From positions 1 through 64,000 of the forward strand of contig NZ_AYMR01000006.1 in the NCBI RefSeq assembly GCF_000633535.1: 64,000 nt of DNA. Reading direction: 5' to 3'. Numbering within the stretch: the stretch's first letter is position 1; every line of letters starts with the position of its first letter. This DNA comes from Leifsonia aquatica H1aii. GTDB taxonomy: Bacteria; Actinomycetota; Actinomycetes; Actinomycetales; Microbacteriaceae. A model generated the notes under the pieces. It did no database searches. It was not told the DNA's origin and worked only from the letters and a program-made list of their open reading frames with translations. Position numbers and translations under genes: made by a program. Of this stretch, positions 4,462-58,233 are shown piece by piece.

Positions 4462-4562
4462 AAGAGACTCCGGACTCGACGAAGCCGTCCCCCCGGAGGC
4501 CAGCGGATCGGCAGGCACGGTAGGCGATCACAGTGATGAATCCAATGAAGGAGGCACAGCAA

Positions 4563-5810: not shown

Positions 5811-5814
5811 CCGC

Positions 5815-6801
5815 ATGGCCTCCCCGCTGATCACGGGTGCCGCCGTCTCGAAGGAGACGGCGGCACCCGCCGCGCCCGCGACGCGGCCGTTCCACGTACC
5901 CCACCCCACCCCGCCGCGGAAGGGCGGCAAGAAGCGCCGTGGCGACGGCCTCACCGCCCTCGCCTACCTCTGGCCCGGGCTCGCCGGCTTCGTCTTCTTC
6001 ATCGTCGTTCCCCTGCTGGGCTCGCTCGTCATCAGCCTCTTCGAGTGGCCGCTGTTCGGCTCGCCGACGTTCATCGGGCTCGCCAACTACCAGAAGCTGT
6101 TCTCGGACCCGACGTTCTACACGGTCCTCTTCAACACGGTGATCTTCGCGTTCGTCTACACCGCGCTCAACCTGGCGCTGGCGCTGGCGATCTCGCTCTG
6201 GCTGAACACCCGGGTCAAGTTCGCCGGATTCTGGCGGGTCATCTTCTTCCTGCCCGCCATCACGCCGATGGTCGCCAACGCGCTGGTCTGGCGGTTGCTG
6301 CTCAGCGACAACGGCATCGTGAACTCGACGCTCGCCTCGATCGGGATCGACGGGCCGAGCTGGCTCTCCGACTCCCGCTTCGCCCTCGCCTCCGTGATCG
6401 CGATGTCGGTGTGGCAGTCGTTCGGCTACAACGTGATCGTGCTCTCGGCCGGCCTCGGCGGCATCCCGAAGGAGATCCTCGAGGCGTCGCGGATGGACGG
6501 CACCAACGCCTGGCAGCGCCTGAAGTCGATCATCCTGCCGATGCTCTCGCCGTCGCTGTTCTTCACGATGACGATGACGATGATCGGCGCCTTCCAGGTG
6601 TTCGTGCAGCCGCAGATCCTGACGCAGGGCGGACCGGGCGAGTCGACCAACACGTTCGTGCTGTACCTCTACCGCAACGGTTTCGTCTTCGACCGGCTGG
6701 GCTACGCGTCCGCCCTCGCGTGGATGCTGTTCGTCGTCGTCATGCTCATCACCGCGCTGCAGTTCGCCGGTCAGAAGAGGTGGGTCAACTATGACAAGTG
6801 A
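5815..6801 (+). CDS. CUT1 sugar ABC transporter permease (MalF/UgpA type)
   Basis: A 328-residue inner-membrane permease. After a Pro-rich cytoplasmic N-terminus it shows about six hydrophobic segments and the EAA loop (EASRMDGTNAWQRLKSI, near residues 223-239) that contacts the ATPase. It starts 4 bases after the stop of the binding-protein gene and overlaps the next permease by 11 bases, so the three are co-translated. The family assignment is firm; fucose specificity is inferred from the operon. Confidence 0.9.
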   Translation: MASPLITGAAVSKETAAPAAPATRPFHVPHPTPPRKGGKKRRGDGLTALAYLWPGLAGFVFFIVVPLLGSLVISLFEWPLFGSPTFIGLANYQKLFSDPTFYTVLFNTVIFAFVYTALNLALALAISLWLNTRVKFAGFWRVIFFLPAITPMVANALVWRLLLSDNGIVNSTLASIGIDGPSWLSDSRFALASVIAMSVWQSFGYNVIVLSAGLGGIPKEILEASRMDGTNAWQRLKSIILPMLSPSLFFTMTMTMIGAFQVFVQPQILTQGGPGESTNTFVLYLYRNGFVFDRLGYASALAWMLFVVVMLITALQFAGQKRWVNYDK

Positions 6802-7681
6802 GTCCGTCCGCACCCCCGAGCGGGTGCGACCGAAGCCGCGCATGCGCCCCGCCCAGAGGGTCGTCGTCGCCAAGACCTGGCTGAACACGCTCGTGCTCGC
6901 GATCGTCGCGCTGGCGTTCACCTTCCCGTTCATCTGGATGTTCTTCTCGGCGCTCAAGCCCGAGAACGAAGTGTTCTCGCCCACGCCGTCGTTCATCGGC
7001 TCCGAGGTGAAGTGGTCCAACTTCGTCGACGCGTGGACCCTGGTGCCGTTCGGCCGATTCATCTTCAACGGCTTCTTCGTCGCGATCTGCGGCGCCCTGT
7101 TGTCGGTGATCGTGGCCGTGCTGAGCGCGTACGCGTTCTCGCGCCTGCGGTTCAAGTACCGCGACCGCATCTTCCTGCTGTACGTGTTCACGCTCGTGCT
7201 GCCGCAGGAGGTGCTCGTCGTCCCGCTGTTCATCATGATGAACCAGCTCGGGCTGGTCGACACCTACGTCGCCCTGATCGTGCCGTTCGCGTTCACCGCG
7301 TTCGGAACGTTCCTGCTGCGGCAGTTCTTCCTCACCATCCCCATCGAGTTCGAGGAGGCCGCGATCATCGACGGAGCCTCCCGGTTCCGCACGCTGTGGT
7401 CGGTGCTGCTTCCTCAGCTCGCGGCTCCGCTCTCGGTGCTCGGCGTCTTCTCGTTCGTCGGCTACTACAACTCGTACCTCTGGCCGTTGATCATCATCAA
7501 CAGTCAGGACCTCGCAACCGTCCCGCTCGGCCTCTCGATGTTCACCGGCGAGCACGGAACGCAGTGGAGCCTGATGATGGCCGCCTCCACCCTGGCGATC
7601 ATCCCGTCGCTGATCATCGTCGCCGTGCTCCAGCGCCAGCTCATCAAGGGCGTCGCGCTCGGCGGCTTCGGCGGCCGCTGA
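6791..7681 (+). CDS. CUT1 sugar ABC transporter permease (MalG/UgpE type)
   Basis: A 296-residue permease and partner of the MalF-type protein. The first hydrophobic segment begins near residue 35, and the EAA loop reads EEAAIIDGASRFRTLWSVLLP at about 193-213. It overlaps the upstream gene by 11 bases. About 64 bases separate it from the enolase-superfamily gene, probably within one transcript. Confidence 0.9.
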   Translation: MTSESVRTPERVRPKPRMRPAQRVVVAKTWLNTLVLAIVALAFTFPFIWMFFSALKPENEVFSPTPSFIGSEVKWSNFVDAWTLVPFGRFIFNGFFVAICGALLSVIVAVLSAYAFSRLRFKYRDRIFLLYVFTLVLPQEVLVVPLFIMMNQLGLVDTYVALIVPFAFTAFGTFLLRQFFLTIPIEFEEAAIIDGASRFRTLWSVLLPQLAAPLSVLGVFSFVGYYNSYLWPLIIINSQDLATVPLGLSMFTGEHGTQWSLMMAASTLAIIPSLIIVAVLQRQLIKGVALGGFGGR

Positions 7682-43847: not shown

Positions 43848-44903
43848 TCAGCGCGAGAGGCGCTCGACGATCGAACCGAAGAGCTCGGGTCGCGCGGCTG
43901 CTGTCGGCACGATGCGTGGCCGGAACCGGGAGCGGGAGGCGATGACGAGCGCCGAGGTCAGCATCCGGAAGTCCCGGGTGGTCGCCCGCCAGGCGCGTTC
44001 GTACTGCTCGGTGTCGCGCGTACGCACGGCGGCCACCGCGGCGCGGGCCTGAGCGAAACCCACCCGCATCCCTTCGCCGGTGAGCGCGTCCACGTAGCCC
44101 GAGGCGTCGCCGGCCAGCAGCACATGACCGGACGCGCGGGCGCGGGCGCGCTGGAGCAGGGGCCCGGCGCCGCGGGCGGAGCCGACGACGGTGGAGCCGG
44201 CGAGCCGGGAGGCCAGGGCGGGGAGCGTGTCGAGCACGGCGTCCTGGTCCAGCGGCCGTCGTCCCAGCACCGCGACGCCGACGGTGTGCTCGTCGACCGG
44301 GGTCACATAGGCCTCGGCGGCGGGCGACCAGTGCACCTCGACCAGCTCGCTCCAGGGCTCGACGGCGTAGTGCCGGCGCACGCCGTAGCGCCGGCGCGCC
44401 TCCGCCTGCGGGCGGCGCTCCAGCCCGAGCATCCGCCGCACGGGCGAGTGCAGGCCGTCCGCTGCGATGGCCCAGGGAGCCTCCAGGCCCGTTCCATCGG
44501 CCAGCTCGAGACGGACGCGGTCGCGCTGCTGGGTCAGGCCCGAGACCCGGCCGTCCCTGCTCCGCGCTCCGAGCTCCTCGGCGCGCCGCGCGAGGGCGGC
44601 ATGCAGCACCGTGCGGCGGACGCCGCGCCCCGGGCGCTCGGCGAACCGGTGCTCGACCCGGGTGTCGTCGTCGATGTAGGCGATCCCGGCGAGGGGGTGC
44701 CCGGCCGGGTCGACGCCGATGCGGTGCAGGGCCGCGAGCGCGCCCGGCATCAGACCCTCCCCGCAGGCCTTGTCGATGGGGCCGTCCCGGGGTTCGACGA
44801 TCAGCACGTCCATCCCGTCGAGGCGCGCCTCGATCGCGCAGGCCAGCCCGACCGGGCCGCCGCCGATGACGACGAGGTCGGGGATCGGCCCCGCGCCGCT
44901 CAT
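43848..44903 (-). CDS. FAD-dependent monooxygenase/reductase, SrsC-like
   Basis: A 351-residue flavoprotein of the PHBH/geranylgeranyl-reductase group. VVIGGGPVGLACAIEA binds the ADP part of FAD, KACGEGLMP is typical of the group, and HVLLAGDASGYVDALTGEGM is the second FAD motif. Its ATG overlaps the methyltransferase stop. After a type III polyketide synthase and an ICMT-like enzyme it would hydroxylate an alkylresorcinol ring to a quinol, as SrsC does in Streptomyces griseus. The reaction is inferred from operon order. Confidence 0.85.
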   Translation of the reverse strand: MSGAGPIPDLVVIGGGPVGLACAIEARLDGMDVLIVEPRDGPIDKACGEGLMPGALAALHRIGVDPAGHPLAGIAYIDDDTRVEHRFAERPGRGVRRTVLHAALARRAEELGARSRDGRVSGLTQQRDRVRLELADGTGLEAPWAIAADGLHSPVRRMLGLERRPQAEARRRYGVRRHYAVEPWSELVEVHWSPAAEAYVTPVDEHTVGVAVLGRRPLDQDAVLDTLPALASRLAGSTVVGSARGAGPLLQRARARASGHVLLAGDASGYVDALTGEGMRVGFAQARAAVAAVRTRDTEQYERAWRATTRDFRMLTSALVIASRSRFRPRIVPTAAARPELFGSIVERLSR

Positions 44904-45424
44904 GCCCGCGCGGGGACGACGGTCGCCAGCGCGCGATCCTCGCACGGGATGCGCACGGCGAGCAGCAGGACGGCGTTCAGCACGGTGAAGGCGAGGGCGG
45001 TGATCCACGCCGTGTGCACGAGGGGCAGGGCGAATCCCTCCACCACCACGGCGACGTAGTTGGGATGCTTCAGCCACCGGTAGGGACCCCGCACCACGAG
45101 CGGCAGGTCGCGCACGACGATGACCCGGGTGTTCCACCGCGGACCGAGAACGGCGATGCACCACCAGCGCAGCGCCTGGCTGGCGAGCACCAGCACGAGC
45201 ATCGGCCAGCCGAGCCAGGGGAGGAACGGGCGGTCGCCGAACCACACCTCCGCCAGGCAGGCCAGCAGCAGGCCGGTGTGCAGCGCCACCATCGGGGGGA
45301 AGTGCCCGCGTCCGAACTCGACGCCGCCACGCGCGAACGACCAGCGGGCGTTGCGGGTGGAGACGACCAGCTCGGCGATGCGCTCGGCGCCCGTGGCCAG
45401 CACGAGCACCAGGTACCAGATCAC
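44900..45424 (-). CDS. ICMT-like membrane methyltransferase, SrsB/BpsB-like
   Basis: A 174-residue membrane protein with about five helices. RVIVVRDLPLVVRGPYRWLKHPNYVAVVVE is the isoprenylcysteine methyltransferase signature, with the RHPxY-type SAM motif read here as KHPNY. The family member next to type III polyketide synthases O-methylates phenolic lipids. It overlaps both neighbours by four bases. Confidence 0.85.
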   Translation of the reverse strand: MIWYLVLVLATGAERIAELVVSTRNARWSFARGGVEFGRGHFPPMVALHTGLLLACLAEVWFGDRPFLPWLGWPMLVLVLASQALRWWCIAVLGPRWNTRVIVVRDLPLVVRGPYRWLKHPNYVAVVVEGFALPLVHTAWITALAFTVLNAVLLLAVRIPCEDRALATVVPARA

Positions 45425-46524
45425 GCGGCCGCGCCGATCGCGGTTCCCGCGTGCGGGGCGCCCTCGGCCCAGCGCAGCAGCACCAGCTCACTGGTGACCC
45501 CGGGTCCGAGAGCGAAGAGCAGCCCGACGGTGCCGGCGGCGTGGGCGTCCAACTGCTCCGCCAGCACGTGCAGCACCGCGGCCGAGGAGAGGTTGCCGAC
45601 CCGAGCCAGCGACCGCCAGCTCGCATCGAGCGCTCCCTCGGGGAGGTCGAGCGCCTCGGCGAACGCCTCCAGCACCTTCGGGCCGCCGGGATGCGCGGCC
45701 CACGCCCCGACATCGGCCACCTCGAGGCCGTGGGCGGCGAGGATCCCGCGAGCGTCGCCGGCGAAGTTGCGCTCGATCACCTCGGGCACGCCGGCGCTCA
45801 GCACGATGCGGAATCCCGTGCCGCCGATGTCCCAGCCGATGACGTCGGCGGTGTCGGGGTAGATGCGGCTGCGGGTGTCCACCACGTCGGGCCCCGCGAG
45901 ACCGAGCGCCGCGGCCCGCTCGTCGCCGACCATGACGACCGCCGCCGCGCCGTCGCCGAAGAGCCCGCTGGCGACGATGTTGGCCATCGAGTCGTCGCTG
46001 GCCTGAACCGTCAGGGAGCACAGCTCGACCGAGAGCAGCACCGCGACCTCCCGCGGATGCCCGGCGAGGTAGTCGTGCACCCGGGCGATTCCCGCCGCCC
46101 CGGCGACGCAGCCGAGCCCGAAGCTGGGCAGTCGCTTGACGTCGGGCCGCAGCCCGAGTCGCGCGACCAGTTGCGCGTCGATCGAGGGAGCGGCGATGCC
46201 GGTCACCGAGGTGAAGAGCAGGAAGTCGACATCGGCCGGTTGCAGCCCCGCCGAGGCGAGCGCCCCGGTGACGGCGCGCTCCGCCAGGGTCGTGCCCTCC
46301 GCGATGAAGAAGTCGTTCGACTCCTGGAACGACGCGATCGAGCTGTACCGCTCGAGGGGCATGACGAGGCTGCGGGTCTCGACGCCGCTCGCCGCATGGA
46401 TGCGCCGCATCACGGCCTGGCGCTGCGGGTCGGGGGTGATCATCCCCAGCAGCGCGGTCGTGATCTCCTGCTGGGGGTAGCTGCGGGCCGGGAGCACCGG
46501 CGCCACCGACACGATTCGGCTCAC
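45421..46524 (-). CDS. Type III polyketide synthase, alkylresorcinol/alkylpyrone type
   Basis: A 367-residue homodimeric ketosynthase. The catalytic triad is Cys139 (FGLGCVAGAAG), His278 (AAHPGGPK) and Asn311 (VGNLSSAAV). It would extend long-chain acyl-CoA with malonyl-CoA to make alkylresorcinols or alkylpyrones. I use the GTG at 46524, although neither it nor the GTG at 46548 has a strong ribosome binding site. It is the first gene of the SrsABC-like operon. Confidence 0.9.
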   Translation of the reverse strand: MSRIVSVAPVLPARSYPQQEITTALLGMITPDPQRQAVMRRIHAASGVETRSLVMPLERYSSIASFQESNDFFIAEGTTLAERAVTGALASAGLQPADVDFLLFTSVTGIAAPSIDAQLVARLGLRPDVKRLPSFGLGCVAGAAGIARVHDYLAGHPREVAVLLSVELCSLTVQASDDSMANIVASGLFGDGAAAVVMVGDERAAALGLAGPDVVDTRSRIYPDTADVIGWDIGGTGFRIVLSAGVPEVIERNFAGDARGILAAHGLEVADVGAWAAHPGGPKVLEAFAEALDLPEGALDASWRSLARVGNLSSAAVLHVLAEQLDAHAAGTVGLLFALGPGVTSELVLLRWAEGAPHAGTAIGAAA

Positions 46525-46640
46525 AAGCGCAACGTACACCCGGCGCACATCCTGCGACGACGGCTCACGGCCGCCTCACATCTGGACCGGATGCCGGCCG
46601 TCGGCGAGCGATTCGCGACGGCCGGTCCGAGTGCGGACGC

Positions 46641-47045
46641 TCAGGCGAGCACGGCCAGCGCGTCGATCTCCACCAGCATCTCCGCGCGCGGCAGCCCGGT
46701 GAAGACGGTGGTGCGGGCCGGGAGCACTCCGGAGGCGACGCGGGCGCCGACGAACTCGCCGTAGGCCTCGTTCATGGCCGCGAAGTCGTCGCGCGTGGTG
46801 AGGTAGACGCGCAGCATCATCACGTCGTCGAAGCCGGCCCCGCCTGCGGCGAGGATGGCCTCGACGTTCTGCAGGGTGCGGGTCGTCTGCGCCTTCACAT
46901 CGCCCGGGTGCAGGTACTCGCTGGTGGCCGGGTCGACCGGCCCCTGGCCCGAGACCTGGAGGAACGGACCGCGGCGCACGCCCTGCGAGAAGGTGTGCGC
47001 GGGCGGCGGGGCGTCGGTGGTGGAGACGGCGATGCGGTCGGTCAT
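46641..47045 (-). CDS. RidA family enamine/imine deaminase
   Basis: A 134-residue YjgF/RidA protein. FLQVSGQGPVDPATSEYLHPGDVKAQTTRTLQNVEAIL and PARTTVF, with the Arg that binds the carboxylate, are family features. RidA proteins hydrolyse reactive 2-aminoacrylate-type enamines released by PLP dehydratases. Here the partner is probably the PLP enzyme at 49014. The ATG overlaps the IclR stop by four bases. Confidence 0.88.
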   Translation of the reverse strand: MTDRIAVSTTDAPPPAHTFSQGVRRGPFLQVSGQGPVDPATSEYLHPGDVKAQTTRTLQNVEAILAAGGAGFDDVMMLRVYLTTRDDFAAMNEAYGEFVGARVASGVLPARTTVFTGLPRAEMLVEIDALAVLA

Positions 47046-47848
47046 GCTGAGCCTTTCGGAACGGCGGACGCACGGGCGCCCGGGAGGGTTGCGGTCGGGA
47101 CGGCGGAGGGGGGTGCCCCCAGTTCGGCGGAGACGCGCGCGGTCGCGAGGAGCAGTGCGGGGAGCAGCCCGAGGACTCCCTCGTAGGGCAGCACCACGTT
47201 CGGTACCGACACCGAGACGGCGGCCGCGATGCGCCCGTCCGCGCCGAAGACGGGGGCGCCGACGCAGTTCATGAACGTCTCGTGCTCCTCGTGGTCCTCG
47301 GCCCAGCCGCGGGCGGCGCTGTGCCGCACCTCGGCGACGAGCTCGGCGGCGCCGCCGATCGTCCGCTCCGTGTAGCGCTGGAACGGCACGCCCGCGACGA
47401 CGCGCTCGAGCTCGGCGTCGTCGAGCGCGCCGAGCAGCACCTTGCCGACGGCGGTCGCGTGCAGCGCTGCGGGGAGGCCGACGCGGGAGTACATGCGCAG
47501 CGGCTGCCGCGACTCGACCTTGTCGATGTACGTGACCACGCCGTCCTGGTAGGTCGCCAGGTGGACGGTCTGGCCGGTCTCGGCCGCGAGAGCGTGCAGG
47601 GCGGGGGAGGCGGCGGAGCGTACATCGCGGGCGTCGAGGGCGCTCTCGGCGAGGGCGAAGACCGCCGGGCCGAGATGGAACCGGTGGGAGCTGTCGCGCC
47701 CGACGAATCCGCGCTCCTCCAGCGTCTGGAGGAGGCGGAGGACCGTGGTCTTGTGGACGCCGACCTCGTCGGCCAGGGCGTCGAGCGTCGCGACGCCGCG
47801 GGAGACCAGGTCGAGCACATCGAGGGCGCGACCGAGGGACTGGCTCAT
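47042..47848 (-). CDS. IclR family transcriptional regulator
   Basis: A 268-residue repressor. The winged helix reads ATLDALADEVGVHKTTVLRLLQTLEERG and is followed by an effector-binding IclR domain (LATYQDGVVTYIDKVES, HATAVGKVLLGAL). GGAGGAG lies three bases before the ATG at 47848. It lies between the kinase and ridA genes in an overlapping operon and should bind the repeats at 48931-48957. IclR effectors are often sugar acids. Confidence 0.88.
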   Translation of the reverse strand: MSQSLGRALDVLDLVSRGVATLDALADEVGVHKTTVLRLLQTLEERGFVGRDSSHRFHLGPAVFALAESALDARDVRSAASPALHALAAETGQTVHLATYQDGVVTYIDKVESRQPLRMYSRVGLPAALHATAVGKVLLGALDDAELERVVAGVPFQRYTERTIGGAAELVAEVRHSAARGWAEDHEEHETFMNCVGAPVFGADGRIAAAVSVSVPNVVLPYEGVLGLLPALLLATARVSAELGAPPSAVPTATLPGARASAVPKGSA

Positions 47849-48852
47849 GCGCTCCTCCAGGGGATCTCGCCGGGGTGCACGCGCCACCCGGACCATTCGT
47901 CGCGCGCGGCGGCGATCGTCGTGCGCTCGTCCGCGCTCGGCACGGAGAGCGGGCGGTCGCCGTGGCCGATCAGGGTCAGCGCCGCCAGGGCGTGCCCCAG
48001 CCGCAGGGCGGCTTCGTCGTCGCGGCCTTCCGCGAGCCCGGCGAGGAACCCGGCGGCGAACGCGTCCCCCGCCCCGACCGGCTCCACGACCTCCACCGTC
48101 AGGCAGCGGACCTCGGCCTCGCGCCCGTCCCTGCGGTGCACCGACGCGCGATGGGCGTCCTCCTTGAGCACCACGGCGTCGAGCTGCGGGAACGCAGCGA
48201 ACAGGCGCACGGGGTCGGCATGACCGAAGTGGGCAAGGGCCTCGTCGTGACCGGAGAAGAGCAGGTCGGCCTGGGCGACGAGCGCATCCAGCGGCGCCGT
48301 GTCGCGACCGTGCCAGAGCCGGGGGCGGTAGTTGAGGTCGACGCTGACCACGGTCCCCGGTCCCGCCGCGGCGCGGAGTCCGGCCGTCGCCTCGGCGGCG
48401 CTCGGCGACAGGGCGGCGGTGATGCCGCTGGTGTGCAGGTGGGTGGCGCGGGCGAGCAGCGCACCGGCGGGGGAGGTGCGCAGCAGTCCGGGGGAGAGGG
48501 TGGAGGCTGCGGAGCCCTGGCGGTAGTAGTGCATCCGCGTCGTGACGCCGTCGGGCCCGGGGGTGGGCTCCTTGATGTAGAGGCCGGTCGGGCGCGCGTC
48601 GTCCGTCTCCACGGCCGAGACGTCCAGCCCGGCGTCGGCCGCGACCCGGCGGATGCGCTCGCCGAAGCCGTCGGCCCCGAGGCGCGAGATCCAGGCGGCG
48701 GGCAGTCCGAGCCGGGCGAGGGAGGTGGCCACGTTGAACTCAGCGCCGCCGACATCCGAGGCGAAGTCCCGCGCCTCGGCGAGCGGCCGGTGCCCCTCCG
48801 GGTAGAGCACGACCATCGCCTCGCCGAGCGTGACGAGCAGGGGTGAGGGCAT
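47845..48852 (-). CDS. kdgK: PfkB family sugar kinase, 2-keto-3-deoxygluconate kinase-like
   Basis: A 335-residue ribokinase-fold kinase. GGAEFNVATSLARLGL is the first PfkB signature, and VEVVEPVGAGDAFAAGFLAGL is the second, holding the catalytic Asp and the anion hole. The start VTLGEAMVVLYPEG is typical of KDG kinases. AGGAGGGGGG precedes the ATG. With the aldolase at 50288 it would convert 2-keto-3-deoxygluconate to pyruvate and glyceraldehyde 3-phosphate. Substrate by inference. Confidence 0.82.
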   Translation of the reverse strand: MPSPLLVTLGEAMVVLYPEGHRPLAEARDFASDVGGAEFNVATSLARLGLPAAWISRLGADGFGERIRRVAADAGLDVSAVETDDARPTGLYIKEPTPGPDGVTTRMHYYRQGSAASTLSPGLLRTSPAGALLARATHLHTSGITAALSPSAAEATAGLRAAAGPGTVVSVDLNYRPRLWHGRDTAPLDALVAQADLLFSGHDEALAHFGHADPVRLFAAFPQLDAVVLKEDAHRASVHRRDGREAEVRCLTVEVVEPVGAGDAFAAGFLAGLAEGRDDEAALRLGHALAALTLIGHGDRPLSVPSADERTTIAAARDEWSGWRVHPGEIPWRSA

Positions 48853-48930
48853 CCCCCCTCCTCTCGAGTGCGCATGGGCGGTGGTCTTGGCGGACGTCCC
48901 TCCGCATGCTAGAACAGAACGAGCACACAC

Positions 48931-48957
48931 TGCAACGCCCGTTGCAACATACGCAAC
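48931..48957. promoter_or_regulatory. Overlapping inverted repeats, IclR operator candidate
   Basis: TGCAAC-GCCC-GTTGCA (48931-48946) and GTTGC-AACATAC-GCAAC (48941-48957) share their central arm. They lie in the 161-base divergent spacer between the kinase and the PLP-enzyme genes, so one site can control both operons. Confidence 0.65.
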
Positions 48958-49013
48958 GTGCTGCACTGCAGCGACATCCACCCGCATCCACGCCCCACCA
49001 CCGGAGGACCGAC

Positions 49014-50276
49014 GTGAGAGAGTACAAGGCCGTACCGCTCGGCTACGCCCCGGACGACGTCGCCGCGCTCGACGGCGCTCCCGCCGCGCTCCGCGACTTC
49101 CCGACCCCGCTCGTCACCCTCAGCGAGAGCGCCGTCGCGCACAACCTCGCGACGATGGCCGACTGGTGCCGCAGCACCGGGATCGGGCTCGCGCCGCACG
49201 GCAAGACCACGATGAGCCGTGAGCTCTGGCAGCGTCAGCTCGACGCCGGCGCGTGGGGGATCACGGTCGCGACCCCCTGGCAGGCCGCCGTCGCCCTCGG
49301 CTGGGGCGTGCCGCGCGTGCTGCTCGCCAATGCGCTGGTCCAGCCGGCGGCGCTGCGCACCCTCGCGCCGGACACCGACCGGCTGACCGTCTGGGCGGAT
49401 TCCGTGCGCGCGGTCGAGATCATGACCGAGACGCTGGCCGGCTCCGGTCTGCCCGGCGGCGCCCTGCCCGAGCCGCTCGCCGTCCTGGTCGAGCTGGGTG
49501 CCCCCGGCGGCCGCACCGGGGCCCGCACCGCGGAGGAGGCGCTCGCCGTCGCCCGCGCGGTCGCCGCCTCCCCCGTCCTTCGTCTCGCCGGCGTCGCCGG
49601 CTACGAAGGCGCGCTCGCCCACGACGGCAGCGCCGAGTCCCTCGCGACCGTGCGCGGCTACCTCGAGCGGATCGGGGCCGTGCACGATGCCCTGGAGGCC
49701 GCCGGACTGTACCCGGAGGACGCCCCGGCGATCCTCACGGCCGGGGGCAGCGCCTACTTCGACGTCGTCGCGGAGGTCCTCGCTCCACGGCGCGATCTCG
49801 CCGGCGCCCGGGGCCGGGTCGTCGAGGTTCTGCTGCGTTCCGGCGCCTACCTCACGCACGACGACGGCTTCTACAGCGTCATCGCGCCACTGGGCCGCGC
49901 CGGGGGAGGGACGTTCCGCTCCGCGATCCACGGCTGGGCCACCGTCGTGTCCCGACCGGAGCCCGGGCTCGCACTCGTCGACGGCGGCAAGCGGGACTTC
50001 CCGTACGACGAGGGGCTGCCCGTGCCGCAGGCGGTCCGGGCGTACGGCGCCGATCACGACCTCCCCCTCTCCGGCGCGGTGGTCACGGCGATGAACGACC
50101 AGCACACGTTCGTACGCCTGCCCTCGCACGCCCGTGTCGAGGTGGGGGACGTGATCCGCTTCGGCCTCTCGCACCCGTGCACCACCTTCGACAAGTGGCG
50201 CGCCCTCCCGGTCGTCGACGACGCCCTCGGCGCAGACCCGCGCGTGATCGGCCTGCTCGAGACCACCTTCGGCTGA
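49014..50276 (+). CDS. PLP-dependent D-threonine aldolase/D-serine dehydratase-like enzyme, D-glucosaminate dehydratase candidate
   Basis: A 420-residue alanine-racemase-fold enzyme. Lys64 in APHGKTTMS is the PLP Schiff-base Lys. AGGSAYFD and the late metal pair, His in NDQHTFV with His/Cys in LSHPCTTFD, mark the DSD1/D-threonine aldolase family. Known activities are beta-elimination from D-serine-type amino acids and from D-glucosaminate. Neighbouring KDG-kinase, aldolase, RidA and deacylase genes favour D-glucosaminate. The GTG at 49014 follows CGGAGGACC closely. Confidence 0.8.
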   Translation: MREYKAVPLGYAPDDVAALDGAPAALRDFPTPLVTLSESAVAHNLATMADWCRSTGIGLAPHGKTTMSRELWQRQLDAGAWGITVATPWQAAVALGWGVPRVLLANALVQPAALRTLAPDTDRLTVWADSVRAVEIMTETLAGSGLPGGALPEPLAVLVELGAPGGRTGARTAEEALAVARAVAASPVLRLAGVAGYEGALAHDGSAESLATVRGYLERIGAVHDALEAAGLYPEDAPAILTAGGSAYFDVVAEVLAPRRDLAGARGRVVEVLLRSGAYLTHDDGFYSVIAPLGRAGGGTFRSAIHGWATVVSRPEPGLALVDGGKRDFPYDEGLPVPQAVRAYGADHDLPLSGAVVTAMNDQHTFVRLPSHARVEVGDVIRFGLSHPCTTFDKWRALPVVDDALGADPRVIGLLETTFG

Positions 50277-50287
50277 ACGGACACAGC

Positions 50288-50911
50288 ATGCTGCTCGACA
50301 CCCTCCGCCGCGACCGCGCCCTCGCCGTCGTACGCGCCCCGCGCATCGACGACCCGGTCGGCCTCTGCCGTGCGCTCGCCGCCGGCGGCATCCGCACCGT
50401 CGAGTTCACCTTCACGACCCCGGGGGTGGAGGAGGTGATCGCCGCCGCCGTCGCCGGCGAACATGACGCGCTGGTGGGCGCCGGCACCGTGACCGACGCC
50501 CGCACGGCGGAGGCCGCCGTCGCCGCCGGAGCGCGCTTCCTGGTGACCCCCGGCCTCAGCGAGGGCGCCGCCGGTGTCGCGCGGGAATCGGGCGTGCCCA
50601 TCCTGCTGGGCGCGGTCAGCCCCACCGAGGTGATGCGCGCGATCGAACTGGGTGCCGCAGCGGTCAAGGTCTTCCCGGCATCCCTGGTCGGTCCGCGCTA
50701 TCTCCGGGACCTGGCCGGGCCGTTCCCCGGCACCCTCTTCGTGCCCTCGGGCGGACTCGACGCCGGCAACGCGCGCGAATGGATGGACGCGGGAGCCCTG
50801 GCCGTGACCGCAGGCTCGAGCGTCGTGAGCGCGAACGACATCGCGGCCGCCTCGTGGAGTGCGGTGACCGAGCGGGCGCGGGAGTTCGGCGCGGCCGCGG
50901 CCGGCGCATGA
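50288..50911 (+). CDS. eda: KDPG-type class I aldolase
   Basis: A 207-residue TIM barrel. Lys127 in AAVKVFPAS is the Schiff-base Lys and Glu39 in VEFTFTTP the general acid/base. The Arg found in VTLRT of Escherichia coli Eda is Thr43 here, so specificity may differ (KDPG, KDPGal or an unphosphorylated analogue). GAGTVTD and VPSGGL complete the family pattern. It follows the PLP-enzyme gene by 11 bases and its stop overlaps the deacylase ATG. Confidence 0.85.
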
Positions 50912-52521
50912 GCGGATCGGCGCCGACGCTCATCCGCGGCGCGCGGGTGCTCGACGGAAGCGGCCGGCCGGGCGAGACGGGCGACGTGCTCCTCACCGAG
51001 GGCCGTATCCGGCGGGTCGGCGGCCGTCTCGACGCTCCGGGCGCGCGCGTCATCGACGCCGACGGTCTCGCGCTCGCACCCGGCTTCATCGACATGCACG
51101 CCCACTCCGACATCGCCGTCCTGACCGATCCGGTGCACCTGGCGAAGGTCTCCCAGGGGGTCACGACCGAGGTCGTCGGGCAGGACGGGCTCTCGTACGC
51201 CCCCGCGACCTCCGTCGCAGCGGACGTCCTGCGCGACCAGCTGGCCGGCTGGAATGGCGTCCCGCCCGGCCTCGCCCTCGGCTGGCCGACCGTGGGCGCC
51301 TACCTGGAGGCGGTCGATGCCGCCCGCCCGGCCGCGAACGTCGCGGCCCTCGTGCCCCAGGGCACGGTGCGCCTCGACGTCGTCGGCGCTGCCGACCGCC
51401 CGGCGACCGCCGGCGAGCTCGCCGCCATGCGCGCCCTCGTCGAGGCAGGGATGCGCGACGGCGCCTTCGGGATGTCCTCCGGCCTCACCTACGTGCCCGG
51501 CATGTTCGCCGGCACGGACGAGCTCGTCGCCCTCTGCACGGTGGTCGCCGCGCACGGCGGGGTGTACGTGCCGCACCAGCGGTCGTACGGCGCGGGGGCG
51601 CTCGACGCCTACGCCGAGATGATCGACATCGCCCGGCGGTCGGGCGTCGCCCTGCACCTCGCGCACGCCACCATGAACTTCGGCGTCAACCGCGGGCGCG
51701 CGGGCGAGCTGGTGGCGCTGCTCGACGCGGCCATCGCGTCCGGTGTCGAGCTCACCTTCGACACCTACCCCTACCTGCCGGGCTCGACCACCCTCGCCGC
51801 ACTCCTGCCGTCCTGGGCGGCGGACGGCGGACCGGCGGCGACGCTCGACCGCCTTCGCGACGAGGCGCTGCGTACGCGGATAGCCCACGAGCTCGACGTC
51901 GTCGGGACCGACGGCTGCCATGGCGTTCCCGTGGAGTGGGAGACCATCGAGATCTCCGGGGTGCGCGACCCGGCCCTCGCCGATCGTGTCGGCCGCACCG
52001 TCGCCTCGCTCGCCACCGCCTCGGGAGAGGCCGCGTCCACCGTCGCCCTGGATCTGCTGCTGGCCGACCGGCTCGGCACGGGGATCCTGCAGCATGTCGG
52101 CGACGAGGCCAACGTGCGCACGATGATGGCGCACCCGCGGCACACCGGCGGAAGCGACGGCATCCTGGTCGGTGACAAGCCGCATCCCCGGGCCTGGGGC
52201 ACCTTCCCGCGCTACCTCGGGCACTACGTGCGCGACGAAGGCGTGCTGCGGCTGGAGGACGCCGTCGTCCACCTCGCGGCCCGTCCGGCCGCCCTTCTCG
52301 GGCTCACCGACCGCGGCCGCATCGCCCCCGGGCTCGTAGCGGATCTGGTGCTCTTCGATCCCGCGACCATCGCGGATCGGGCCACCTTCGCGGCCCCGCG
52401 CCGGCAGGCGGAGGGCATCCCGTGGGTCCTCGTGGCGGGCGAGCCGGTCATCGCCGAGGGCGCGCGCACCGAGGCGCGGCCTGGGCGCGCGCTACGCTCG
52501 TCGGCATGCGCGCCTTCCTGA
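50908..52521 (+). CDS. N-acyl-D-amino-acid deacylase-like amidohydrolase
   Basis: A 537-residue amidohydrolase of the D-aminoacylase family. [10 protein letters not shown] has the metal-binding HxH, LHLAHATM and a late VGTDGCHG Asp complete the site. The Cys of the usual GNCG motif is replaced (VVGQDGLS), as in some uncharacterised relatives. It could remove the acyl group from an N-acyl-D-amino acid or N-acetyl-D-glucosaminate, feeding the PLP enzyme. The ATGA overlap with the aldolase shows coupling. Confidence 0.82.
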
Positions 52522-53069
52522 TCCTGCACGGCTGGGACAACCACCGACCGCCCGGGCACTGGCAGCACGAGCTGGCGACCGCCCTGCGTTCGCGCGGGGA
52601 GCGGGTCGAGTATCCGCAGCTGCCGAGCGCGTCGTCCCCGTCGCTCGCGGGCTGGCGGGATGCGGCCGGCGTCTCCCTGCGCGCCGCGGCGGCCGACGGC
52701 GCCGAGGTGACGGTGATCTGCCACAGCCTCGCCTGCCTGCTCTGGCTGGGCGCGCGTCCGGCGGACGCGGCGGTGAGGCACGTCCTGCTCGTCGCGCCGC
52801 CGTCGCGAGAGGTGGTGGCCGGCATCCCCGAGATCGCCTCGTTCGCCGCCGTCGACCCGGCACGGCCCGCCATGGCGACGACCATCGTCGCGTCGGACGA
52901 CGACCCGTTCTGCCCGGAGGGGGCACAGGCGGCCTACGGGGCACCGCTCGGCATCCCGGTGCAGACCATCCCCGGCGGCGGCCACCTCGAGCTGACCGCC
53001 GGCTACGGCGAGTGGCCGTCGATGCTGGCCTGGTGCTTCGACCCGACCACCACGCTGCAGCCCCGCTGA
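52506..53069 (+). CDS. RBBP9/YdeN-like serine hydrolase
   Basis: A 187-residue alpha/beta hydrolase of the DUF1234/RBBP9 family. FLILHGWDN begins the fold, the nucleophile Ser is in ICHSLAC, the Asp in ASDDDPFCP and the His in GGGHL. It overlaps the end of the deacylase gene by 16 bases. The natural substrate of this family is unknown, and a link to the amino-sugar genes is only positional. Confidence 0.82.
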
Positions 53070-53088: not shown

Positions 53089-54240
53089 TCAGCCCTGGGC
53101 TTCGCGGACGATCGCGACGAGCGGGTCGAACAGGACCTCGCCAGGGACGACCCCGGTGACCTCCGACACGATCTCCTCCGCCGAGGCCTCCTCCAGCAGG
53201 TGGCGGAGCTCGACGCTCTGCGTGTCCGCGGGCACATAGAAGCGCAGCGCGGCGCCGACGGCGGCCAGCAGCGCCTGGGGCACAGACCCGACGTAGGCGA
53301 CGTGGTCGATCGCCGGACCGATGAACCGGTCGTTGCGGCCCAGCTTGCGCAGCGGTTCGCGTCCGACGCGGGCCACCTCGTCCACCAGGTGCGGGTTCGC
53401 GAAGCGGCCGAGGATCGTCGCGCGATAGGCGGCCATCTCCTCCGGGTCGAGGCCGTGCTTGGCGACGAGCGCGGCCGACGTCTCGCGCAGGGCGTCCTCG
53501 GCGGCCTGCCGTACGGCCGGGATCGCGATGGCCTCGCTGATCGTCTCGGCCCCCTGCAGGAAGCCGGTGTACGCGACCGTGGCGTGCCCGGTGTTCACCG
53601 TGAAGAGCTTGCGCTCGATGTACGGCGCCAGGGAGTCCACGAAGTGGGCGCCCGGGATGGCGGGCTCACGGCCGGCGAACGGGCTGCGGTCGACGACCCA
53701 CTCGTAGAACGTCTCGACGGTCACATCCACCCCCGCGCCCGGAGCCTGGGCGGGGACGATCCGGTCCACCGCGGTGTCGGCGAAGACGGCCTTGGCGGCC
53801 AGCGCCTCCCGTGTCTCGTCGTCGAGCAGACCGTCCATCAGCTCGGCGGCCAGCAGATCGGTGGCGCCGATCGCGTTCTCGCACGCCATGACGGCGAGGC
53901 GCGGGGCGTCGTCCGCTCGGGCCGCGAGGCCCTGCGCGATCACCGGGGCGACGAAGCGCAGGATGCGCGGGCCGACCGCTGTCGTGACCACGTCGGCCGT
54001 GGCGATCTCGGCGACCAGCGCCGCCTCGTCGGTCGCGCTGTTGATGGCGCGGAAGCCGGTGACGGTCCTGGTCTGCGACTCCTCGCCGACCAGGTGGACG
54101 TCGTAGGAGTCGGCCGCGGCCAGTGCGTCGATGAGGTCGGCGTTGACGTCGGCGAACACCACCTCGTACCCGGCTTCGTGGAGCAGGAGCCCCACGAAGC
54201 CGCGGCCGATGTTGCCTGCCCCGAAGTGGACGGCCTTCAT
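53089..54240 (-). CDS. mtlD: Mannitol-1-phosphate 5-dehydrogenase
   Basis: A 383-residue polyol dehydrogenase. [17 protein letters not shown] at the N-terminus is the canonical MtlD NAD site, and [11 protein letters not shown] plus YMER-like ERKLFTVNT segments are conserved. I prefer the ATG at 54240 because GAGGTGA lies eight bases before it; the GTG at 54252 is less likely. It oxidises mannitol 1-phosphate from the PTS to fructose 6-phosphate. Confidence 0.95.
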
Positions 54241-54253
54241 GCGTTCGGTCACC

Positions 54254-54691
54254 TCAGTCGTTCACGTCGCCGAGGAGCGCGAACAGCGCGTCGGCGTCCG
54301 GAGCCTCGATGAGCTCCCGCACGTCGTCGTCCTCCGAGAAGAGGATGGCGATCTTCGACAGGATCTCGAGGTGCTCGTTGTTCTGTCCCGCGATGCCCAC
54401 GACGAACCGCACCTCCTCGCCGCCCCAGTCGAGCGGCGAGGAGTAGCGGACGAAGGAGAGCGCCGAGCGGGTGATCTCGTCCTTGGACTCGTTGGTGCCG
54501 TGCGGGATCGCGAGCCCGTTCCCCATGTAGGTGGAGACGGTGTTCTCGCGCTCCTGCATCGAGTCGACGTACCCGGGCTGCACCGCGCCGGCCTGCACCA
54601 GCAGCGCGCCCGCCTCCCGGATCGCGTCCTCCCGCGTGGTCGCGGTGCCCGCGGCCACGACGTTCGCCCGGTCGAGAATCGTGTCGGTCAT
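54254..54691 (-). CDS. mtlF: Mannitol PTS EIIA
   Basis: A 145-residue phosphocarrier. His64 in [13 protein letters not shown] is the phosphorylation site. It passes phosphate from HPr to the IIB domain of MtlA. Its ATG overlaps the mtlA stop by four bases. It is a free IIA subunit, whereas in Escherichia coli it is fused to MtlA. Confidence 0.94.
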
Positions 54692-56211
54692 TTGCTGGCG
54701 TCCTCCGGTGCTGATTGGGTCTGCTTGGCGACGAGGTCGACGACCTCGTCGTACTTGGGGCTGTTCATGAAGTTGTCGACCGAGACGTGGAGCGAATCCG
54801 GCGACTGGCCCTTCGCCCGGTCGGTCAGCTGCTGCTGGGTGATGACGAGATCGGCCGTGCCGTCGAGGTCGGCGATGGCCTGGTTCGTCACCGTGACCCC
54901 CTCCACCCCGGCCTTCTTGAACTTGTTGCGGAGCACGGACGCGCCCATCGCGCTCGAGCCCATCCCAGCGTCGCACGCGAACACGATGTTGCGCACCAGT
55001 CGATCGGTGGCATCGCCCTGGGCGTCGCCGGTGTCGTGCTCGCCCTCGTTCACCAGGCTGCCGAGCACCGAGGAGGACTTGCCCTTGTTCGCCTCGGTCT
55101 GGGCGACCGCGGCGGACAGGTCGCCGGCGTTGCCGGTCGCGAGGTCGCGTTTGCGCGTCGCCCGCAGCACGATGGCGCTGAAGGCGAACGAGACCGCCGC
55201 CGCCGCGACGATCGAGACCGCGATGCCCACCATGTTGGGCACCGGGGCCTGCGCGAAGATCGCGAACACCGATCCAGGGGCCGCGGGTGCGCGAAGACCG
55301 GTTCCGAAGGCGACGTTCACCGCGACACCGGTCATGCCGCCGAGCACGGCGCCGATGATCAGGATCGGCTTCATCAGCACGTACGGGAAGTAGATCTCGT
55401 GGATGCCGCCGAAGAACTGGATGATGAAGGCGCCCGGAGCGCTCGCCCGTGCGGCCCCGAGCCCGAAGATCGCCCAGGCGAGCAGGATGCCGGCGCCGGG
55501 GCCGGGGTTCGTCTCGATCAGGAAGAGGATCGACTTGCCGGTCTGCTGCGCCTCGAGCGTCCCGATCGGGGTGAAGACGCCGTGGTTGATCGCGTTGTTG
55601 AGGAAGAGCACCTTGCCCGGTTCGACCAGGATGCTGACGAGCGGCAGCAGGTGCACCGAGACGAGCCAGTTGACGCCCGCCTCCAGCGCCTTGCTGAGGC
55701 CCTCGACCAGCGGTGCGATGCCGAAGAACGCGCCGATGGCCAGGATGAAGCCGAGGATTCCGGCAGAGAAGTTGTTGACGAGCATCTCGAAGCCCGCTTT
55801 GATCTTCCCCTCCCAGATCTTGTCGACGAGCTTCATCAGATAGCCGCCGAGCGGGCCCATGATCATCGCGCCGATGAACATCGGGATGTCGGAGCCGACG
55901 ATCACGCCCATCGCCGCGATGGTGCCCACCACGCCGCCGCGGACGCCGTAGACGATCCGGCCGCCTGTGTTGGCCAGCAGCAGCGGGAGCAGGTACGTGA
56001 TCATCGGGCCGACGAGCCCGCCGATCGCCTTGTTCGGGAACGGCCCCTCGGGGATGAACAGAGCGGTGATGATGCCCCAGGCGATGAAGGCCGGGATGTT
56101 GGGCATGACCATGTTCGAGAGGAAGGTGCCGAAGCGCTGCACGCCGACGCGCGCGCCTCCGGGTCGCTTCGCTGTCGTCGCCGTCGTCGACGTCTCTGTC
56201 GCCGATGTCAT
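54688..56211 (-). CDS. mtlA: Mannitol PTS EIICB
   Basis: A 507-residue membrane transporter. The IIC domain (about 25-350) has FLSNMVMPNIPAFIAWG and the conserved GGIHEIYFPYV (268-278). The IIB domain near the C-terminus has the phosphocysteine Cys413 in FACDAGMGSS. It imports and phosphorylates mannitol. It lies 64 bases downstream of ptsI. Confidence 0.95.
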   Translation of the reverse strand: MTSATETSTTATTAKRPGGARVGVQRFGTFLSNMVMPNIPAFIAWGIITALFIPEGPFPNKAIGGLVGPMITYLLPLLLANTGGRIVYGVRGGVVGTIAAMGVIVGSDIPMFIGAMIMGPLGGYLMKLVDKIWEGKIKAGFEMLVNNFSAGILGFILAIGAFFGIAPLVEGLSKALEAGVNWLVSVHLLPLVSILVEPGKVLFLNNAINHGVFTPIGTLEAQQTGKSILFLIETNPGPGAGILLAWAIFGLGAARASAPGAFIIQFFGGIHEIYFPYVLMKPILIIGAVLGGMTGVAVNVAFGTGLRAPAAPGSVFAIFAQAPVPNMVGIAVSIVAAAAVSFAFSAIVLRATRKRDLATGNAGDLSAAVAQTEANKGKSSSVLGSLVNEGEHDTGDAQGDATDRLVRNIVFACDAGMGSSAMGASVLRNKFKKAGVEGVTVTNQAIADLDGTADLVITQQQLTDRAKGQSPDSLHVSVDNFMNSPKYDEVVDLVAKQTQSAPEDASK

Positions 56212-56275
56212 GATGGGGCCTCGTTTCTGTCAGGGATCCCGTTTCTGGTGGGGGATCTCATCGGGTGGGGGTGCG

Positions 56276-57964
56276 CTACTGCGGGAAGGCGGCCGCGGCC
56301 GCACGGACCGCGTCGCGGGCTTCGGCCGCGCCGTCGGCGGCCAGGGCGACCTCGGCCAGGGCCCGCGCCTGGTCGAGGGTGAAGCGGGTCAGGGAGAGCC
56401 GCACGTCGGCGAGTGCCGCCGGCGACATCGAGAGGGTGGTGGCGCCGAGGCCCACCAGGACGACCGCCAGCAGCGGGTCGGCCGCGGCCTCGCCGCAGAC
56501 GCCCACCGGCTTGCCGTGGTTCGTGCCCGCCGAGCCGACCTCGCCGATCAGGCGGAGGACGGCGGGGTGCCACGGGTCCTGGAAGCCGGCGACCGAGCCG
56601 AGCAGGCGGTCGGCGGCGAGCGTGTACTGGGTGAGGTCGTTCGTGCCGATCGAGGCGAACGCCGCCGACTGCAGCACCCGGTCGGCGAGCAGCGCGGCGG
56701 AGGGGACCTCCACCATCACCCCGACGGTCTTCAACCCGAACCCGGTCGCCAGCTCGACGAAGTACCGGGTCTCCTCCACGGTCGACACCATCGGCGCCAT
56801 GACCCAGAGGTCGGCGTCGGTGGCCGCGTCGGCCTCGGCCAGGGCGGTGAGCTGCTCGCGGAGCAGATCCTCGTTCGCCCGCAGGGCGCGCAGGCCGCGG
56901 AGGCCGAGCGCGGGGTTGTCCTCGTGGGCGTCGTTGAGGAACGCGAGCGGCTTGTCGGCGCCGGCGTCGAGAACGCGCACGACGACCTTCTTGCCGGGGA
57001 ACGCCGCGAGCAGGGCGGTGTACTGCTCGCGCTGCTGCTCCACGGTCGGAGCCATCCGCTGATCCAGGAACAGGAACTCGGTGCGGAACAGGCCGACGCC
57101 CTCCGCCCCGGCGTCGAGCGCCTTCTGCGTCCCCTCCGCGGAGCCGAGGTTGGCCAGCAGCGGGACGGGCGTGCCGTCGGCCAGCGCCCCGGGTTCCCGG
57201 CCGCCGGCGAGGGCGGCCGCGCGCTCGTCGATGCGCCGTCGGGCGTCGGCGCTCTCCTCCGCGCTCGGGGCGACGGTGACGGTGCCGGAGGCGGCGTCGA
57301 CGACCACCTCGGTCCCGTCGGTCAGCGTGTCGGAGCCGGCCACCCCGACGATGGCGACGATGGCCTTCTCGCGGGCGAGGATCGCGGTGTGGGAGGTCGG
57401 ACCTCCCTCGCGCGTGATCAGCCCCAGGACCTTGCTCAGATCGAGCAGTGCGGTGTCGGCCGGGGCGAGGTCGTGGGCGACGAGCACGTACGGTTCGTCG
57501 GACTCGGGCACCCCAGGAGCCGGACGGCCCGAGAGCGCCGCGATCACGCGCTGGGCGACATCGTCCAGGTCGGTGGCGCGCTCGCCCATGTAGCCGCCGA
57601 GGCCGATGAGCATGTCGCGGAACACCGCGAAGCCCTCGAACACGGCGCGCTCGGCGGTCGTGCCGCCGTCGATCCGCGCGGCGACGTCGTCGGCGAGGGT
57701 CGAGTCCTCCGCCATCATCGACTGCGCCTCGAGCACGTCGGCGGCGATGCCGGTCACCTTCGCGGCGCGCGACCGCAGATCGGTGGCGACGGCGGCGACG
57801 GCCTCGGCGACACGCGCCTTCTCCTCGTCGGGGGTGCGGGTGCTGGGCGTCTCGGCCGGCTCCGGGAGCGGGTCGGACATGCGGAGCACCGGTCCGAGGG
57901 CGACGCCCTGGCCGATGCCCGCTCCGGTGAGCCGGGTGGTGGACACGCTGGTCTCGGTGGCCAT
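56276..57964 (-). CDS. ptsI: PTS enzyme I
   Basis: A 562-residue PEP-protein phosphotransferase. His192 in EGGPTSHTAI takes phosphate from PEP. GVGLFRTEFLF and SIGTNDLTQYTLAADR are the PEP-binding signatures, and PVGVCGEAAADP holds the catalytic Cys. It starts two bases after the ptsH stop. It is a general component that should serve every PTS in the cell, yet lies in the mannitol operon. Confidence 0.96.
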   Translation of the reverse strand: MATETSVSTTRLTGAGIGQGVALGPVLRMSDPLPEPAETPSTRTPDEEKARVAEAVAAVATDLRSRAAKVTGIAADVLEAQSMMAEDSTLADDVAARIDGGTTAERAVFEGFAVFRDMLIGLGGYMGERATDLDDVAQRVIAALSGRPAPGVPESDEPYVLVAHDLAPADTALLDLSKVLGLITREGGPTSHTAILAREKAIVAIVGVAGSDTLTDGTEVVVDAASGTVTVAPSAEESADARRRIDERAAALAGGREPGALADGTPVPLLANLGSAEGTQKALDAGAEGVGLFRTEFLFLDQRMAPTVEQQREQYTALLAAFPGKKVVVRVLDAGADKPLAFLNDAHEDNPALGLRGLRALRANEDLLREQLTALAEADAATDADLWVMAPMVSTVEETRYFVELATGFGLKTVGVMVEVPSAALLADRVLQSAAFASIGTNDLTQYTLAADRLLGSVAGFQDPWHPAVLRLIGEVGSAGTNHGKPVGVCGEAAADPLLAVVLVGLGATTLSMSPAALADVRLSLTRFTLDQARALAEVALAADGAAEARDAVRAAAAAFPQ

Positions 57965-57966
57965 GA

Positions 57967-58233
57967 TCAGGCGTCGTGGTCCGTGGTGAGGATGTCGGCG
58001 AGGTCGTCGAGCACCGCGTCGGCGTTCGCCGCGTCGGTGGTGAGGACGATCTTGTCGCCGTGGTCGATGCCCAGGGAGATCACGCCGAGGATGCTGCCGG
58101 CGTTGACGGACTTGCCGCCCTCCTTGGACAGCTGGACGGTGGCGCCGGACGCGTTGACCGCCTCGACGAAGAGCTTCGCCGGGCGCGCGTGCAGTCCGTG
58201 GCTCGATCCGACAGTGATGATCCGCTCAGCCAT
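57967..58233 (-). CDS. ptsH: PTS phosphocarrier HPr
   Basis: An 88-residue HPr. His15 in SSHGLHARPAK is the phosphorylation site. The regulatory-site region reads KSVNAGSILGVISLG with Ser47. No HPr kinase gene is seen here. AAGGAGAA precedes the ATG at 58233. It is co-transcribed with ptsI. Confidence 0.96.
   Translation of the reverse strand: MAERIITVGSSHGLHARPAKLFVEAVNASGATVQLSKEGGKSVNAGSILGVISLGIDHGDKIVLTTDAANADAVLDDLADILTTDHDA

Follow-up and report, generated by a model that had tools for sequence, protein, structure and literature searches.

A putative actinobacterial gene cluster for the catabolism of N-acetyl-D-glucosaminate in Leifsonia aquatica

Introduction

The catabolism of N-acetyl-D-glucosaminate (GlcNAc1A), the acid of C1-oxidized chitin ends, has been described for the ong cluster of the marine bacterium Pseudoalteromonas prydzensis, in which OngB deacetylates the acid, OngC deaminates the product to 2-keto-3-deoxygluconate (KDG) and KdgK phosphorylates the latter (PMC9537276). 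According to that report, the RidA protein OngD is required for growth, its role being left open, OngC also deaminates D-Ser and D-Thr, and in Vibrio, Klebsiella and Serratia the ong cluster contains a gene for 2-keto-3-deoxy-6-phosphogluconate (KDPG) aldolase (PMC9537276). Here, we analyzed 64,000 nucleotides of the Leifsonia aquatica H1aii genome (assembly GCF_000633535.1, contig NZ_AYMR01000006.1, positions 1 to 64,000; hereafter the window), in which a sequence-only reading had proposed that six genes at 46641–52521 fit a single route for GlcNAc1A or a related N-acyl amino-sugar acid. That reading had also pointed to similar enzyme types in a marine oxidative chitin route, and the ong cluster bears this out (PMC9537276).

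The genome survey that accompanied the description of the ong pathway retained clusters with at least four genes over 30% identity and, apart from Gammaproteobacteria and a single Betaproteobacterium, reported no bacteria with the complete downstream route (PMC9537276). Known chitin-active lytic polysaccharide monooxygenases (LPMOs) are said to give C1-oxidized ends (PMC12017989).

Results

Organization of the cluster and proposed pathway

The interval 46641–52521 consists of six complete open reading frames in two arms that diverge from a control region at 48853–49013, between the kinase and pyridoxal phosphate (PLP) enzyme genes, with 4-base overlaps between adjacent genes inside each arm. 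All six proteins were assigned to their families above Pfam gathering scores. The minus-strand arm encodes a RidA/YjgF enamine-imine deaminase of 134 amino acids (46641–47045; PF01042, 98 bits), a 268-amino-acid IclR-family regulator with both its helix-turn-helix and C-terminal domains (47042–47848; PF09339, 44.5 bits and PF01614, 141 bits), which is the presumed repressor of the cluster, and a PfkB-family sugar kinase of 335 amino acids predicted to act on KDG (47845–48852; PF00294, 152 bits). The plus-strand arm encodes a D-serine-dehydratase-like fold-type III PLP enzyme of 420 amino acids with a GTG start (49014–50276; PF14031, 74.5 bits and PF01168, 28.7 bits), a 212-amino-acid KDPG/2-keto-4-hydroxyglutarate aldolase (50273–50911; PF01081, 152 bits) and a D-aminoacylase-like amidohydrolase of 537 amino acids, predicted to be an N-acyl amino-sugar-acid deacylase (50908–52521; PF07969, 131 bits).

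We propose that these genes probably act as a unit in the catabolism of a 2-acetamido-2-deoxy-aldonate, GlcNAc1A being the most likely one. The deacylase would remove acetate from GlcNAc1A to give D-glucosaminate, from which the PLP enzyme would eliminate water; the resulting enamine/imine would lose ammonia, with the help of RidA, to yield KDG. The kinase would then convert KDG to KDPG, and the aldolase would cleave KDPG into pyruvate and glyceraldehyde 3-phosphate. The supposition that the six genes serve one route is supported: the scheme accounts for each of them and matches the marine ong chemistry.

Enzymes predicted to act downstream of deacylation

The ong reference used here is the annotated cluster on a plasmid of Pseudoalteromonas sp. 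CF6-2, not that of the type strain; its deacylase matches P. prydzensis OngB (PpOngB) in the PDB with an E-value of 6.6e-247. The PLP enzyme of the window shares 34% identity with the OngC homologue of this reference, both possessing the PHGKTTM and HPC motifs, and Lys64 and His387-Pro-Cys389 of the window protein are found in the marine one as well. We take Lys64 to be the PLP-binding lysine and the HxC motif near the C-terminus to have its usual role in this family. With these residues, and with PF14031 as well as an alanine-racemase N-terminal domain, the protein is a D-serine dehydratase-like enzyme of fold type III; its best PDB match is the D-serine deaminase 3gwq (E-value 7e-66). We predict that it is the enzyme eliminating ammonia from D-glucosaminate. 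The kinase has the Thermus KDG kinase 1v19 as its best PDB match (E-value 2.9e-40), and the aldolase scores above the cut-off of the curated TIGR01182 model (178.8 versus 156.05).

The deacylase and its active site

The best PDB matches of the deacylase were a D-aminoacylase (1m7j, E-value 4.6e-78) and PpOngB (9kb1, E-value 1.1e-61). Equivalents of the OngB catalytic residues His68, His70 and Asp368 are kept, as are those of Tyr194, His222, His252, Tyr285 and Arg379, so that the zinc His pair is retained. The position of the OngB zinc ligand Cys97 is occupied by Asp93, and the Cys/His/His zinc site of the OngB family is accordingly Asp93/His223/His253 in the window protein, with Asp at this position in all 13 aligned actinobacterial deacylases (residue roles in OngB are from PMC12017989). 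Further replacements with respect to OngB are Thr255 for Lys254, Tyr227 for Glu226, Gly292 for Ser290 and Thr294 for Ser292. Because the zinc-ligand and specificity residues differ, a direct OngB assignment was ruled out and the protein is not considered a member of the OngB family. If the proposed pathway is right, it would nonetheless work like OngB.

Conservation in relatives

To the results on named genomes the following scope applies: the best 80 of at least 587 confirmed stretches were kept, all actinobacterial by title, some being cut by contig ends. Across these 80 loci, genes for RidA, IclR and the kinase were found in 71, 63 and 59, respectively, and both the PLP enzyme and the deacylase were present in 73. 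Within these 73, RidA accompanies the pair in 68, IclR in 63, the kinase in 59, a gluconate-type permease of the GntP family in 45 and the aldolase in 27, and 56 have RidA, IclR and kinase together. Where the flanks are complete (61 loci), 57 have both PLP enzyme and deacylase, with RidA in 56, IclR in 51, kinase in 45, permease in 37 and aldolase in 20. A deacylase match at an E-value of 1e-30 or below was obtained in 127 of 296 genomes belonging to the class of the window, and in all 29 ortholog loci fetched from this class the PLP gene is next to the deacylase gene. The constancy of this pair (29 of 29, and 73 of 80 in the named loci) therefore argues for more than a chance neighborhood.

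In Leifsonia shinshuensis (L036), the closest of the named relatives, all six genes recur with order and strands unchanged, at 69–89% identity. On a Tsukamurella plasmid, the annotated record lists RidA, IclR, sugar kinase, PLP enzyme, D-aminoacylase, KDPG aldolase and a gluconate:H+ symporter consecutively; the permeases of this plasmid and of Plantibacter (L039) score above the cut-off of the gluconate-symporter model TIGR00791. Three members of the family to which the window belongs (G117, G213 and G289) carry a more distant version, with all six gene types, a deacylase of 37–43% identity and the operator site described below between the PLP and kinase genes.

A deacylase gene without PLP enzyme was also seen in Promicromonospora (L037:6246-13468) and Cellulomonas (L041:17-5290), beside a gene for a sugar ATP-binding cassette (ABC) binding protein and one whose product belongs to a family that no Pfam or NCBIfam model matched (the 417-amino-acid Promicromonospora copy was scanned). 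In Promicromonospora the next gene encodes a 1-aminocyclopropane-1-carboxylate deaminase (TIGR01274, above cut-off).

A conserved operator-like motif

The control region contains the 19-bp sequence CGTTGCAACATACGCAACG (48940–48958), an inverted repeat of the form CGTTGC-N7-GCAACG, which we predict to be the IclR operator. It is separated by 55 bases from the start of the PLP gene and by 87 from that of the kinase gene. A seed derived from it was run on 41 kinase/PLP intergenic regions, the window's own included, and scored at least 14 in 29 of them versus one of 820 single-base shuffles. A weight matrix was then built from the best places of the 41 regions and used with a threshold of 18. The site of the window scores 30.3 and is the only place in the window reaching 10. 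Of the 73 named loci with PLP enzyme, 64 have a matrix site immediately before its gene (26 of 34 for loci outside the training set), and only five further sites occur in 1.59 Mb, with none in reversed sequences. The proposal of the sequence-only reading that a single divergent operator governs the cluster is supported by this conservation. IclR would repress both arms from this site and be released by a pathway intermediate.

The exact pattern occurs only once in the L. aquatica genome. When three mismatches were allowed, 20 matches were obtained in this genome versus 38 in a reversed control, and such loose matches are meaningless since the control gives more. A perfect palindrome, TGCAACGCCCGTTGCA (48931–48946), overlaps the inverted repeat and is possibly a second half of the operator. 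When the control region was scanned for sigma-70 consensus elements, no promoter emerged, only one terminator-like stem consisting largely of the palindrome, and this outcome was taken as uninformative.

Genes behind the same motif elsewhere

The five further matrix sites precede genes encoding a sugar ABC binding protein (two Saccharopolyspora species and a Micrococcales metagenome-assembled genome) or a GH20 hexosaminidase (two Actinokineospora species); within each pair of species, Pfam served to type one protein, and its partner was assigned by clustering with it. Fourteen genomes have no kinase gene at the main locus, and we searched 11 of them for an unlinked copy. Seven matches had an E-value of 1e-49 or below and five of these, in Marinactinospora thermotolerans and in Saccharopolyspora kobensis, S. 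rhizosphaerae, S. oryzae and S. rosea, carry the motif upstream, with scores of 18 to 28. For comparison, 397 random pieces of 300 bases gave a 99th percentile of 11.6; their highest score, 33.0, was taken to come from a piece with a real motif site.

The exact pattern was matched in 82 of the 296 class genomes, the reversed control pattern giving 17 hits over all 296. A group of 27 genomes (genus g31 of family f25), taken as Streptomyces partly from deacylase identity and gene order, has 41 exact sites versus two of the control pattern. Nine correspond to the main site and 32 lie elsewhere: 12 before a sugar ABC binding-protein operon, 15 before a KDPG aldolase gene, two before a GH20 gene alone (one at 574 bases), one before a lactonase gene and two unexplained (L274 and L277). 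Thus 30 of the 32 precede importer/GH20, aldolase or lactonase genes, a count to be read with the shared ancestry of Streptomyces genomes in mind, their sites not being independent events. A GH20 gene is found downstream in 11 of the 12 motif-led sugar ABC operons, the twelfth being cut by a contig end, and the motif-linked lactonase is of the 7-bladed type. At one locus (G089, L143) the site falls inside an over-long called frame, whose true start we place just downstream.

Fourteen named Streptomyces genomes, subject to the same reservation on ancestry, contain 30 distinct exact sites versus one of the control pattern. Five are main sites and, among the other 25, eight precede an aldolase gene, eight a binding-protein gene, and three a lactonase gene (one with the match 422 bases away), six being of other kinds, so that 19 of 25 fit the route. 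A single chemical line would run from the import of N-acetyl-hexosaminides and their cleavage by GH20 through lactone opening and deacylation to ammonia loss, phosphorylation of KDG and aldol cleavage, and in Streptomyces its genes lie behind a common motif. The presence of importer-GH20, aldolase and lactonase genes behind the motif therefore points to a chitin-derived aldonic acid; GH20 and a lactonase would be expected for chitooligosaccharides with a C1-oxidized end. Together with the operator-bearing unlinked kinases, these genes add to the support for the pathway.

The motif was encountered in other contexts as well; outside the Streptomyces group, a fetched subset of the exact-pattern sites was inspected, with hardly any from the small genomes of family f32. 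A second site in Plantibacter flavus lies before a deacylase remnant (98 residues, 42%) followed by a GH20 gene without stops (L195:8792-9175). In family f26 (L246, L248, L249, L251 and L254), it stands between an IclR gene with 38–39% identity to that of the window and a sugar ABC binding-protein operon, perhaps representing a sister regulon, and in L258 and L260 it precedes an IclR gene of 36–37%. In a Leifsonia locus (L190) it is found before frames that by eye resemble TetR and RND proteins, while no gene could be assigned to an Actinacidiphila site (L187). Sites without explanation are those of L145, L245, L247, L250, L252, L259, L261, L262 and L263 and one site each of L244, L249 and L251; in L253 the site is inside a called binding-protein frame.

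Co-occurrence with AA10 monooxygenases

AA10 LPMO genes are present in all 27 genomes of the Streptomyces group. Among the class genomes, an AA10 LPMO was found in 39 of 45 with a deacylase ortholog (at least 53% identity) versus 46 of 251 without, and leaving out family f25 the figures are 13 of 19 versus 45 of 250, relatedness being ignored in both comparisons. This co-occurrence and the chemistry of the motif-linked genes lead us to consider GlcNAc1A as the most likely substrate.

Neighboring genes in the window

Downstream of the cluster, a Ser_hydrolase gene (PF06821, about 52497–53069) overlaps the deacylase end by some 16–25 bases, depending on the chosen start. Among the best 80 named loci only that of L. 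shinshuensis (L036) has it (65% identity), and it was for this reason left out of the cluster. It is followed at 53089–58233 by mannitol-1-phosphate-dehydrogenase-type and phosphotransferase system EIIB/EIIC genes, along with frames that by eye look like EIIA, EI and HPr; clustering indicates a similar run in L036. On the other side, the minus strand at 43848–46548 holds an adjoining compact set encoding a type III polyketide synthase (PF00195/PF02797), an ICMT-type methyltransferase (PF04140) and a FAD-binding oxidoreductase (PF01494), likely a small polyketide pathway. Farther away, at 4533–7681, two ABC permease genes (PF00528) follow a lipoprotein-like frame that by eye resembles a binding protein; clustering groups these permeases with those of sugar ABC systems in relatives, and no operator site was found there.

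Discussion

Several observations weigh against a GlcNAc1A pathway. In the L. aquatica genome, no AA10 LPMO match was found, neither of the two GH20 regions has an exact operator site, and no transporter was found at the cluster. The top NCBIfam models for the kinase are those of KDG and 2-keto-3-deoxygalactonate (KDGal) kinases, with scores below both cut-offs (151.5 versus 440 and 150.3 versus 400); the marine KdgK homologue is likewise under its cut-off (244.7 versus 400). The PLP family is also found beside amino-acid transporters. In the deacylase, the OngB specificity residue for the C3-OH, Ser292, is not kept and is replaced by Thr in all 13 aligned sequences, and OngB Gln298 (C5-OH) aligns with Arg324, a probable difference in a region where the alignment is unsure. 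In the named loci, the kinase is missing from 14 and the motif from nine of the 73 with PLP enzyme and deacylase. Within the 11 genomes searched for an unlinked kinase, the motif was not found upstream of the two Actinacidiphila matches, and five of the 11 gave either weak matches (six, none with the motif upstream) or no match (two genomes). Finally, of the 25 sites that named Streptomyces have outside the main locus, six could not be explained: those of L294, L295, L300, L305 and L311, and that of L310, which is beside an IclR gene of 31%.

Some of these points concern the lifestyle of L. aquatica. An LPMO-coupled life is unsupported for this organism for want of an AA10 match; its GH18 complement amounts to one weak match over the cut-off and one below. 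A GntP permease encoded on another contig was considered as importer and dropped, given its neighbors, a GntR-type regulator and a gluconokinase-like frame (both by eye). The missing AA10 match and the single exact operator site suggest that the organism may scavenge acid released by others.

The same observations bear on the possibility that the chemistry is as proposed and the substrate another one, such as N-acetyl-galactosaminate, N-acetyl-mannosaminate, a compound with another N-acyl group or free D-glucosaminate. The resemblance of the kinase to bifunctional KDG/KDGal kinase models, a deacylase pocket unlike that of OngB and the lack of an LPMO match in the genome would all agree with it, whereas the LPMO co-occurrence and the importer-GH20 operon argue for chitin; a permease of the gluconate type would suit each of the acids and does not discriminate. 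We regard such a substrate as unlikely.

Catabolism of N-acyl-D-amino acids is also unlikely in our view. Here the D-serine or D-threonine freed by the deacylase would be converted to a 2-oxo acid by the PLP enzyme and RidA, and the kinase and aldolase would serve otherwise. The nearest PDB entries of the two enzymes are indeed a D-aminoacylase and the D-serine deaminase 3gwq, and OngC itself deaminates D-Ser and D-Thr (PMC9537276). In addition, the D-serine carrier DsdX belongs to the GntP family (its model matched more weakly, with a score under the cut-off), an amino-acid permease adjoins the deacylase in one relative (L149), and the kinase is absent from 14 of 73 loci. However, the motif-linked kinase, KDPG aldolase, sugar ABC-GH20 and lactonase genes have no obvious role in D-serine use, and because of them a pathway restricted to D-serine is disfavored. 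That the six genes are chance neighbors without joint function is very improbable: nothing but the differing gene content of certain loci speaks for it, and it is contradicted by the conserved order, motif and motif-linked genes across genera.

The pathway for GlcNAc1A is therefore the one we retain. To the broader proposal, that Actinobacteria have their own complete route for C1-oxidized chitin, parallel to ong and drawn from other branches of the same families, with an Asp/His/His deacylase and, in Streptomyces, an IclR regulon spanning import to aldolase, we give an even chance. If true, it would explain the fate of the acids released by Streptomyces chitin LPMOs and would mean that a widespread terrestrial route has been overlooked, owing to its 26–34% identity to the marine enzymes, another regulator and other transporters. 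It supplies named genes and a named motif. The sequence-only reading had regarded a terrestrial actinobacterial version as new; no published one was found in the open-licence PubMed Central literature. The gene set is widespread in actinobacteria and not peculiar to this genome.

Comparison with known systems

A glucosaminate route proposed for the haloarchaeon Natrarchaeobius shares with our cluster an IclR gene, a RutC-annotated gene and the idea of converting glucosaminate to KDPG (PMC12343721). It differs in relying on a CE14 esterase, glucose dehydrogenase and glucosaminate-6-phosphate lyase, and the consulted part of that report mentions no deacylase or aminoacylase (PMC12343721).

By sequence, the solved structure nearest to the deacylase is the D-aminoacylase of Alcaligenes faecalis (1m7j), whose GNCG motif reads GQDG in the window protein, Cys being replaced by Asp. 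OngB (9kb1) belongs to the same fold family; with 486 residues in CF6-2, it is shorter than the 537-residue deacylase, whose extra residues are mostly in the region of the insertion domain.

The ong cluster has the same four enzyme types as the window, namely a D-aminoacylase-like deacylase, a PLP deaminase, RidA and a KDG kinase, which share 33, 34, 29 and 26% identity, respectively, with the CF6-2 copies. The window cluster does not have four genes over 30% identity, and with values of only 26–34% the published survey rule would miss clusters of this type. No MurR/RpiR regulator, SSS transporter, GH20 or TonB receptor was found among the cluster genes and five scanned neighbors. The regulator is IclR instead of MurR/RpiR, and relatives of the window have GntP or sugar ABC genes instead of an SSS symporter and a TonB receptor. 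Unlike the P. prydzensis-type ong cluster, that of the window has the aldolase built in, and whereas ong has its GH20 gene at the locus, the relatives of the window have theirs elsewhere, behind the same motif.

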